Source: Flavobacterium piscis | Lineage (GTDB): Bacteria; Bacteroidota; Bacteroidia; Flavobacteriales; Flavobacteriaceae | Direction: 5' to 3' | DNA length: 64,000 nt | Assembly (NCBI RefSeq): GCF_001686925.1 | Contig: NZ_LVEN01000027.1 | Location: forward strand, 930,001 to 994,000 | Shown: in pieces, positions 2,266-51,092 of the stretch | How the letters are laid out: each line of letters starts with the position of its first letter | Position numbering within the stretch: the first letter of the stretch is position 1 | Made by a program: the position numbers and the translations under genes | Notes under the pieces: generated by a model | Told to the model about the DNA's origin: nothing | The model's input: the letters and a program-made list of their open reading frames with translations, nothing else | Databases searched by the model: none

Positions 2266-2273
2266 TATCTTTG
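2266..2273 (+). promoter_or_regulatory. -7 promoter element of the ABC-F gene
   Basis: TATCTTTG fits TAnnTTTG. The start of transcription would be near 2280, giving a leader of about 105 bases before the ATG at 2386, long compared with neighbouring genes. A T-rich tract near 2241-2248 is a weak -33 candidate. Confidence 0.6.
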
Positions 2274-2301
2274 TAATCTTAAAATAGGACTAATAATTTA
2301 T

Positions 2302-2331
2302 GTGAAAAATAATTTCTTTCAGGCAATTTAG
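2302..2331 (+). CDS. Putative 9-codon leader peptide upstream of the ABC-F gene
   Basis: A GTG-initiated ORF encodes M(V)KNNFFQAI and stops at TAG 2329-2331. Its codons overlap the left arm (2309-2320) of a stem whose right arm covers the start region of the ABC-F gene, and its stop sits at the foot of the next hairpin. This is the geometry of antibiotic-responsive leader peptides of resistance genes. An ATG at 2300-2302 in another frame is followed at once by TGA, so it is a start-stop and not a competing peptide. Nothing shows directly that it is translated. Confidence 0.35.
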   Translation: MKNNFFQAI

Positions 2332-2396
2332 AGAGTAAACGGCAATTGCGGTTACTCTATTTATTCATTTTTATAGAAAGAAATTATGTTTACTCT
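2309..2396 (+). promoter_or_regulatory. Leader with mutually exclusive stems covering the ABC-F start codon
   Basis: The 12-base arm 2309-2320 (ATAATTTCTTTC) is perfectly complementary to 2376-2387, which reaches into the ATG. Between them, 2332-2340 pairs with 2351-2358 (one bulged A), capped by a GC/GC-closed AATT loop and followed by the T-rich stretch 2359-2373. The segment 2332-2339 (AGAGTAAA) is also perfectly complementary to 2389-2396, codons 2-4 of the gene. This fits an attenuator acting on translation, and possibly on transcription. Inference from base pairing only. Confidence 0.55.
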
Positions 2397-3972
2397 ACAG
2401 AACATTTCATATAAACACAATAACAGTGATTTATTGTTTGACAATATTAGTTTTACAGTAAATAATCACGAAAAAATAGCGCTAATTGGTGCTAACGGAA
2501 TTGGAAAATCAACGTTATTAAAAATCATAGCGGGAGAATTACAGCCATCAAACGGAGAGCTAAGAATTAACTCTGATCCGTATTATATTCCGCAAATTTT
2601 TGGTCAATACAATCATTTCACAATTGCCGAAGCTTTACGTGTTAATCACAAACTCAATGCCCTTCGGGAAATACTGAACGGCAATGTATCAGAAGAAAAT
2701 CTGACTGTCTTAAACGATGACTGGACTATTGAGGAACGTTGCGATAATGCCTTAAAATATTGGCAATTATCTGATTTGGATTTAGCAGAAAAAATCGAAA
2801 ACTTAAGCGGAGGACAAAAAACAAAAGTATTCCTGGCCGGTATTTTGATTCATGAACCTGAATTGGTTTTGCTTGATGAACCCAGTAATCATCTTGACAA
2901 GGCGACCAGAGAATTGCTTTACAATTTTATCGTAACTACAAATAGTAGTTTGATTATTGTGAGTCATGATCGAAAACTGCTTAATCTGTTACCCACCGTT
3001 TATGAACTTAGCAAACGAGGTATTACTATTTATGGCGGAAATTATGATTTTTATACCAGTCAAAAAGAAATTGAAAATCATGCCTTAAACCAGGATCTTC
3101 AAAGTAAGGAAAAAGCCCTGCGAAAAGCCAAAGAAAAAGAACGTGAAACTCTTGAAAGGCAGCAAAAACTGGATGCCCGCGGAAAAAAGAAACAGGAAAA
3201 ATCAGGTGTTGCCCGCATCATGATGAATACATTGCGTAATAATGCCGAAAACAGTTCGTCGAAACTCAAAAGTGTTCATGTAGAAAAAATAGACGGAATT
3301 TCGAAAGAATTACGCGAAATACGCTCGGCATTGCCGGATATTGATCAGATGAAATTTGGTTTTGATGATTCGGGTTTGCATAAAGGAAAAATTCTTTTTA
3401 AGGCAACTGACATTAACTTTAGTTACAACGATCAATTGCTCTGGAAGAAAGATGTAAGTTTAGAAATAACAAGCGGCGAGAGAATTGCGCTAAACGGCCT
3501 GAACGGATCCGGTAAAACGACCCTTATTAAAATTATTTTAGGTAAACTATCCCCAAAATCAGGTAGTGTGCGGATTGCAGAGAATAAAGCTGTTTATATC
3601 GATCAGGATTATTCGCTTATTACTAATGAACTCAAAGTTTACGATCAGGCACAACAATTTAATGTTGCAGGATTAGAAGAACATGAGATCAAAATGAGGT
3701 TGAATCGGTTTTTGTTCCATAAAGAATATTGGGACAAACCTTGCGGCATTTTAAGCGGAGGCGAAAAAATGCGATTAATGCTTTGTTGTTTAACGATTAG
3801 CAACGAATCGCCGGACATTATTATATTGGATGAACCTACAAATAATCTGGATATTCAGAATGTTGAAATCCTGACGGCCGCGATCAACGAATATCAGGGA
3901 ACATTGATTGTGGTTTCTCACGATGAATCATTTTTAGAACAAATAAATATTGAGAAAGCTATCCTTTTGTAA
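2386..3972 (+). CDS. ABC-F family ATPase, likely ribosome protection
   Basis: 528 residues with two ABC domains and no membrane segments. Domain 1 has Walker A GANGIGKST (about 35-43), signature LSGGQ (140-144) and Walker B VLLDEP (161-166). A charged linker of about 80 residues (KEKERETLERQQKLDARGK) separates it from domain 2, with Walker A GLNGSGKT, signature LSGGE and LDEPTNNLD. This is the ABC-F plan: soluble proteins that bind the ribosomal E site, either as translation factors or to dislodge antibiotics bound at the peptidyl-transferase centre. A resistance role is inferred from the long attenuator-like leader and monocistronic layout. The Uup/EttA/YheS type of housekeeping factor is the alternative. 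Confidence 0.85.
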   Translation: MFTLQNISYKHNNSDLLFDNISFTVNNHEKIALIGANGIGKSTLLKIIAGELQPSNGELRINSDPYYIPQIFGQYNHFTIAEALRVNHKLNALREILNGNVSEENLTVLNDDWTIEERCDNALKYWQLSDLDLAEKIENLSGGQKTKVFLAGILIHEPELVLLDEPSNHLDKATRELLYNFIVTTNSSLIIVSHDRKLLNLLPTVYELSKRGITIYGGNYDFYTSQKEIENHALNQDLQSKEKALRKAKEKERETLERQQKLDARGKKKQEKSGVARIMMNTLRNNAENSSSKLKSVHVEKIDGISKELREIRSALPDIDQMKFGFDDSGLHKGKILFKATDINFSYNDQLLWKKDVSLEITSGERIALNGLNGSGKTTLIKIILGKLSPKSGSVRIAENKAVYIDQDYSLITNELKVYDQAQQFNVAGLEEHEIKMRLNRFLFHKEYWDKPCGILSGGEKMRLMLCCLTISNESPDIIILDEPTNNLDIQNVEILTAAINEYQGTLIVVSHDESFLEQINIEKAILL

Positions 3973-50950: not shown

Positions 50951-50975
50951 TTAAATTTCTTATGAAAACTGAAGC

Positions 50976-51052
50976 CTTAGCCCCGATAGAGGCGGTATCC
51001 TTTTTTGAGAAGATTTTTCATCTTCTCAAAAAAGATATAGCCGAAAGCGGGA
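50976..51052. repeat. Dispersed repeat, CTTAGCCCCGATAG ... GAAAGCGGG family, copy 2
   Basis: Contains a perfect 14-bp hairpin, TTTTTTGAGAAGAT (51001-51014) with ATCTTCTCAAAAAA (51020-51033). Its ends match the reverse complement of the element at 42115-42177, showing a shared origin. It sits in the gap between the UPF0173 gene and DUF2199 gene. Confidence 0.8.
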
Positions 51053-51092
51053 AATAGCTCCTTCCTTTTACTACGCTTGGGATAATAAATTA

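Follow-up and report, generated by a model that had tools for sequence, protein, structure and literature searches.

The question raised by this locus is how expression of an ABC-F gene in Flavobacterium piscis is controlled by the leader that precedes it. In the 64,000-nucleotide stretch of DNA that was analysed (hereafter the window), the initial annotation had described an attenuator-like leader, in which an arm beside a short upstream ORF (uORF) pairs with the start region of the ABC-F gene, and this description agrees with what is found in relatives, where the layout is conserved with some compensatory changes. In the conserved uORF, a stop codon comes directly after the start codon (AUG-stop), and it is likely that the leader is a translation attenuator with this one-codon uORF as its sensor.

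The ABC-F gene and its leader

The protein encoded by the gene scores 391.2 bits against the NCBIfam model NF000355 ('ribosomal protection-like ABC-F'; cut-off 380), which places it within the ribosomal protection ABC-F family, and the second-best model, Sal, reaches 288, far below its own cut-off of 725. Among proteins of solved structure, YbiT, Uup, PoxtA and a ribosomal protection ABC-F (7p48) are related to it in sequence, and the closest ABC-F protein among the loci fetched is that of Flavobacterium bizetiae (90%). Judged from these matches, this is a probable antibiotic-resistance gene of the ribosome-protecting kind, whose protein, to judge by family resemblance, would confer resistance, with a drug spectrum that is likewise presumed.

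Table 1. Features of the ABC-F leader and gene in the window.
Feature	Position	Strand	Basis
Bacteroidota -7 promoter box TATCTTTG	2266..2273	+	sequence
AUG-stop (ATG-TGA), one-codon uORF, proposed sensor	2300..2305	+	conservation in relatives
GTG ORF (rejected as sensor), M K N N F F Q A I	2302..2331	+	
P1 left arm ATAATTTCTTTC	2309..2320	+	12 perfect pairs with 2376-2387
Internal hairpin P2, lying inside P1	2332..2358	+	predicted fold
P1 right arm GAAAGAAATTAT, its end reaching the A and T of the start ATG of ABC-F	2376..2387	+	
ABC-F gene, ribosomal protection-like	2386..3972	+	528 aa; NCBIfam NF000355
Codons 2-4 of ABC-F, partner of 2332-2340 in the alternative pairing (not conserved)	2388..2396	+	by eye

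The -7 box that had been reported at 2266 is present, the 12-bp stem (P1) is perfect at exactly the positions first given, and the internal hairpin (P2) is the same as the one in the predicted fold (Table 1). A thermodynamic fold of 2273-2400 is better than those of shuffled sequences (z -2.56; 4/200 shuffles equally good). U-rich sequence lies 3' of P2, and a scan of 2150-2420 found no intrinsic terminator in the window leader, its sole terminator-like site (2191-2223) lying before the promoter. This hairpin stands 3' of the gene at 1792-2160 and separates that gene from the ABC-F promoter. No known Rfam family matched the leader at its gathering score, and three hits fell far below it; elsewhere in the window, a Flavo-1 RNA (RF01705) is found at 50975-51058 (+) with 66.6 bits.

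Conservation of the start-stop

The leader set comprised 81 sequences, namely the window and the best 80 of 230 relatives, which were picked by the similarity of their proteins and not by their leaders. In 79/81 of these a start codon and an immediate stop are found a few bases 5' of the left arm of P1, as ATG-TGA (46), ATG-TAA (18), ATG-TAG (14) or GTG-TAA (1), and the remaining two carry ATG-AAA-TAA. A general start-stop pattern matched 78/81 leaders, while the other three were recognised by eye and then by widened patterns, these being L010, with ATG-TGA ahead of a slightly different arm, and the two-codon uORFs of two Proteiniphilum loci (L069 and L073). The start-stop stands 81-91 nt before the ABC-F ATG in 79/81 and 166 nt before it in both Proteiniphilum loci, whose leaders contain about 80 extra bases that form one more strong hairpin ahead of the right arm.

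All 81 leaders therefore have, by sequence, the short uORF between promoter and gene that an attenuator would need, and in all 81 a -7 box of the form TAnnTT[TG][GA] stands upstream of the start-stop. When the transcription start is placed 5 nt past this box, 4 or 5 nt being a common distance in F. johnsoniae, there is no ATG between it and the start-stop in any of the 81 leaders, and the two are separated by a median of 21 nt (range 6 to 26). Since the median 5' UTR of F. psychrophilum is 24 nt, the start-stop lies where a start codon usually does. An A at -3, which is a favourable start context in Flavobacterium, precedes just 21% of the start-stops, as opposed to 91% of the ABC-F ATGs in the same 81 leaders, so that initiation at the start-stop may be weak, and the loading of ribosomes may depend on position and not on context. 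Further ATGs between the start-stop and the ABC-F start are found in 29/81 leaders.

The stop is kept directly after the start codon, which is a reading-frame rule and foreign to a mere sequence motif. In none of the 81 leaders does TGG follow the start codon directly, even though either position often holds a G (P = 6.6e-7 on the assumption that the two positions are independent, with kinship ignored). On a quick tree of 100 ABC-F proteins, with 35 open forks and with 19 rows from the genome search that are whole open frames untrimmed at the start codon, the one-codon rows include 47 with TGA, 21 with TAA and 21 with TAG. There are 15 changes from one of these stops to another, which is a rough count because, when well-supported branches alone are considered, TGA must have been gained or lost just 2 times, TAA 3 times and TAG 4 times. 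Since UGA, UAG and UAA are all in use, the leader is unlikely to sense any single release factor.

As a control, 252 other genes in the window and the 80 loci were taken, each preceded by 120 nt or more of clear sequence. An [AG]TG-stop at -100 to -65 precedes 11/252 of them, and 1/252 also has a stem of at least 8 pairs to its start, whereas of the 75 ABC-F genes (out of 81) that pass the same filter, 68 have the [AG]TG-stop and 67 also the stem; this comparison is descriptive and carries no p value, because related sequences are not independent.

Pairing of the leader with the ABC-F start region

The left-arm region pairs with the ABC-F start region in 81/81 leaders (P > 0.5 at the best base), the mean fold z of the leaders is -3.0, and the interior, which corresponds to P2, has z < -1 in 74/81. 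Two alignments were used, one of 78 of the 81 leaders (A1, from which L049, L069 and L073 were left out) and one of 60 of the 81 (A2), on which the covariance model (CM) and the pair counts are based. The covariation score in the 60 leaders is 0.185, whereas shuffles give 0.136 (sd 0.009) and slid versions no more than 0.127. In the real structure 81.7% of the cells pair, compared with at most 54% when it is slid, so that P1 goes beyond chance by both its pairing probability and its covariation. Changes on both sides are seen in 12/20 pairs overall and in 4/12 within P1, which is mostly invariant. Two cruder counts on the same 60 leaders fail to separate the real structure from slid ones, with 12 double-change pairs at slide -1 versus 12 real, and 63 double-change cells at slide -3 versus 60 real. 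RNAalifold on the 78 leaders recovered P1 alone, with 9 pairs and a small covariation term of -0.33, and did not recover P2. While all 8 modelled pairs of P2 have changed on both sides, just 57-69% of its cells pair in the 60-leader alignment, and because P2 aligns poorly its exact form is less certain.

The strongest argument for P1 comes from distant relatives in which the two arms differ from those of the window and yet match each other, as in L123 (ATAAATCTTT/AAAGATTTAT), L125 (TATCTTTTC/GAAAAGATA), L126 (GTTTTCTTTCTG/TAGAAAGAAAAC) and L138 (AATATAAAC/GTTTATATT). A further claim of the initial annotation, that an alternative pairing joins 2332-2339 with codons 2-4 of the gene, stands in so far as a run of 9 pairs exists, placed by eye between AGAGTAAAC (2332-2340) and 2388-2396. 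It does not exceed what chance would give over the 81 loci, as p <= 0.05 against shuffles is reached in 3/81 (window p = 0.04), and this pairing was rejected.

The two P1 pairs that involve the first two bases (A and T) of the ABC-F start codon are kept as the commonest pair in 45-48/60 leaders, and the left arm starts 7-13 nt past the first base of the uORF start codon, so that the start-masking pairing has an arm within reach of a ribosome on the uORF, as in an attenuator. The P1 pairs past +16 number exactly 4 in 64/81 leaders, probably too few to hold alone. When a block from -15 to +16 was simulated, the ABC-F start region went from a mean unpaired probability of 0.26 to one of 0.54, and it was opened by more than 0.2 in 65/81 leaders, with no effect in L001, L010 and L033.

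Distribution in genomes and plasmids

Matches to the CM were found in 18/395 Bacteroidota genomes, including that of the window (5.9 Mb), and the gene that follows is directly this ABC-F in 17/18 and a remnant in one. In the latter case (L107, on contig 9 of G017) a complete start-stop leader stands before the first ~18 codons, as counted by eye, of a decayed ABC-F gene, and the same genome has an intact copy with an AUG-stop leader of its own on contig 8 (L125). A second hit in the window's own genome (L090, E 0.25) was rejected, as its GTG-TAA by eye lies inside an MscL-like coding sequence; there is no ABC-F match within the 3-kb locus.

A search with the ABC-F protein found it in 26/395 genomes at E <= 1e-120. 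The start-stop precedes the gene in 19/19 of the genomes with at least 55% identity, among which the ABC-F of G343 has a TAG inside the match. In the other 7/26, the uORF has two codons in one, three codons in three and five codons without a stem of more than 5 pairs in one, and nothing convincing was found in two. Layouts before the distant ABC-F genes are ATG-AAA-TAA, ATG-AAA-ATC-TGA or GTG-AAA-ATA-TAA, several of them with different but complementary arms, and three-codon uORFs are found in five distant Bacteroidota relatives (L130, L135, L136, L137 and L138). Two of these, L137 and L138 (35% identity), came from a separate search and have GTG-AAA-ATA-TAA beside a matching stem, and the gene of G070 (L131/L134) has GTG-AAA-ATA-TAA and an 11-pair stem, seen by eye outside the scripted search window. 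A distant ABC-F branch at 35-42% identity (L134-L138) has this mini-ORF with a matching stem of its own, and its leaders may form a second family. Relatives at 45-53% identity can be without the start-stop and stem (L128, L129, L142 and L143), and a further search of 128 genomes gave matches in 2 and no new leaders.

A match was found in 254 plasmid records, 6 of which were examined. In three Empedobacter copies (74-75% identity) both the ATG-TAA and the stem are kept. In 2/3 of these Empedobacter plasmids, the 10-kb NZ_CP106832.1 and NZ_CP104210.1 (L140 and L144), the ABC-F gene with its AUG-stop leader adjoins a predicted macrolide esterase gene, estT, a neighbourhood that bears on resistance only indirectly. 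The three copies from gut Bacteroidales (49-53%) are without the layout, as nothing convincing was found in L142 and L143, while in L141 the MRI triplet at -157 has no stem, and the 8-pair run that goes with a GTG-TAA at -81 begins about 27 nt from it.

Proposed mechanism and alternative explanations

The leader has the anatomy of an AUG-stop attenuator in its parts, conservation, pairing and spacing. As the AUG-stop is conserved and lies beside a stem that hides the start codon, the two probably form a drug-triggered translation switch. We infer initiation at the AUG at 2300, drug trapping, opening of P1 and induction, in the following way. Ribosomes would load at the first AUG of the transcript, ~21 nt from the presumed 5' end. 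When no drug is present, the release factor would read the stop in the A site, formyl-methionine would be freed, the ribosome would depart, and P1 would mask the ABC-F start codon. A drug that binds on the A-site side of the peptidyl-transferase centre, such as a pleuromutilin, a lincosamide or a streptogramin A, would block the first reaction of the initiating ribosome and also block release, which in turn would hold the ribosome with the AUG in its P site. The leading edge of this ribosome, 16-18 nt past the AUG, would cover about 8 of the 12 bases of the left arm, P1 would open, and the ABC-F gene would be translated.

Drugs that block the first step of peptide formation would also block the action of release factors on formyl-methionine. 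On balance, we lean towards a reading in which, the uORF having no elongation step, the reaction that is sensed is the release of formyl-methionine by the release factor on the start-stop. The switch would then read just the peptidyl-transferase function of an initiating ribosome, with no nascent peptide and no aminoacyl-tRNA except the initiator. If this is so, it would ignore amino-acid starvation and peptide-dependent drugs and respond to every drug that blocks first-step catalysis, and the Bacteroidota ABC-F leaders with three, two and one codons would mark stages on the way to this minimum or back from it.

The initial annotation had put the sensor in the 9-codon GTG ORF; on this reading a drug would stall the ribosome through the peptide MKNNFFQAI and so free the start codon. 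The frame exists, but it begins within the ATG-TGA, which had gone unnoticed, its GTG at 2302 being the tail of 2300-2305; all 46 leaders that use TGA share such an overlapping GTG, and in E. coli re-initiation can occur at the GUG of an AUGUGA site (PMC9841429). Across relatives, however, the codons of this ORF are not conserved, the GTG being absent in 35/81 leaders and the ORF having 9 codons in 21/81 and 2 to 73 otherwise, and the shared FFQ residues are a consequence of the P1 arm, itself kept even in leaders without a GTG. Because the GTG ORF is not conserved, this part of the initial annotation fails, and such a stall is highly improbable. Just as improbable is transcription attenuation, in which P2 and the U-rich stretch that follows it would act as a terminator; several ABC-F leaders do use terminators, but the scan found no terminator-like site within the leader of the window, and the pairing that is conserved masks the start codon.

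Of the remaining explanations, one takes P1 as a constitutive or growth-tuned repressor that lowers ABC-F translation, with the AUG-stop as a decoy or ribosome clearer and no sensing of drugs. While P1 by itself would repress, a decoy needs no fixed spacing of 7-13 nt to the left arm, nor would there be need for a uORF in every examined leader at >=55% identity, and the layout equals that of drug-inducible ABC-F leaders, which makes plain repression unlikely. The short uORF also ends just before a stem whose far foot bears the next start codon, as would suit a ribosome shunt or termination-reinitiation, with an end at the AUG-stop before P1 and a restart at the ABC-F AUG. Shunting across a stem has been proposed for plant pararetroviruses, whereas we know of no bacterial precedent, and since P1 in the window extends over the first two bases of the ABC-F start codon, in pairs that most of the 60 leaders keep, it would hinder landing there; we regard this route as very improbable.

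Comparison with known systems

Among the openly licensed papers listed in the literature searches, none described an attenuator that has a start-stop for its sensor. In ermC/ermB-type leaders, a ribosome on a uORF likewise switches RNA pairing and frees the start of a resistance gene, but the macrolide stall there depends on the nascent peptide, and an AUG-stop yields none. Peptide-dependent leaders such as ermCL and msrDL thus differ from the present one, in which the uORF is a single codon in 79/81 and the GTG peptide is not conserved. The AUG-stop is known as a minimum uORF with a regulatory role in plant boron genes, where the start codon likewise stands directly before the stop, although that system is eukaryotic and boron-dependent and works via stalling and mRNA decay. 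The tetracycline attenuator of Sinorhizobium has a uORF of 29 aa, which is not a start-stop.

Start-stops in which the AUG lies directly or almost directly before a stop have been described in E. coli and Campylobacter jejuni, and those of E. coli have potential regulatory functions; the C. jejuni sites are of 2-3 codons, internal and out of frame, and the available part of the account notes neither a masking stem nor a resistance-gene leader (PMC11955535). At the AUGUGA/GUGUGA of narQ, initiation is likewise followed by immediate termination, but re-initiation there corrects the reading frame of the gene itself and involves neither a leader nor a drug (PMC9841429). The uORF of the E. coli toiL-topAI system likewise pairs with a downstream translation start, and retapamulin and tetracycline stall ribosomes at its start codon, with 3' ends of the tetracycline footprints at +16 to +18; in contrast to the leader described here, toiL has eight codons, several sensing sites, a Rho-dependent layer and control over a toxin-antitoxin operon (PMC12121999).

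The closest likeness is to the ultra-short uORFs of ABC-F genes in other bacteria. PLSA drugs are believed to stall ribosomes on the uORFs of cplR (MRI), vmlR2 (MK[L/Q]) and lsaA (MAGN) with little dependence on context; these uORFs have three to four codons and are Gram-positive, cplR has a terminator hairpin, and no AUG-stop form is noted in the available part of the source (PMC10201436). By analogy, the AUG-stop would be the limit of this series. As the default minimum of uORF4u is three codons, regulators of one-codon size escape it.

In Bacillus subtilis, the resistance ABC-F gene vmlR likewise stands behind a very short uORF, whose start codon is essential; the inducers are drugs that halt ribosomes as they initiate, an arrest on which induction depends, and variants of the uORF peptide work, MRK less well (PMC9226507). 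In a 30S toeprint on vmlR, the leading edge lies ~16 nt downstream with the AUG in the P site. While the vmlR leader has three codons (MIN) with a Shine-Dalgarno sequence, four stem-loops, a terminator and a NusG pause (PMC9226507), the Flavobacterium leader has one codon, where vmlR and cplR have three, no predicted terminator in the window, and a single stem from the uORF to the start codon. If the proposed reading is true, a ribosome-based drug sensor would need no more than a start and a stop codon beside a stem, the leader would offer a clean natural test of which drugs trap the initiating ribosome against the release factor, and inducible ABC-F control would reach a phylum naturally without Shine-Dalgarno sequences, small-plasmid copies included. 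Seen beside these systems, the AUG-stop leader of the ABC-F gene would most likely work by a mechanism like that of vmlR and cplR, with the uORF cut down to its start codon.
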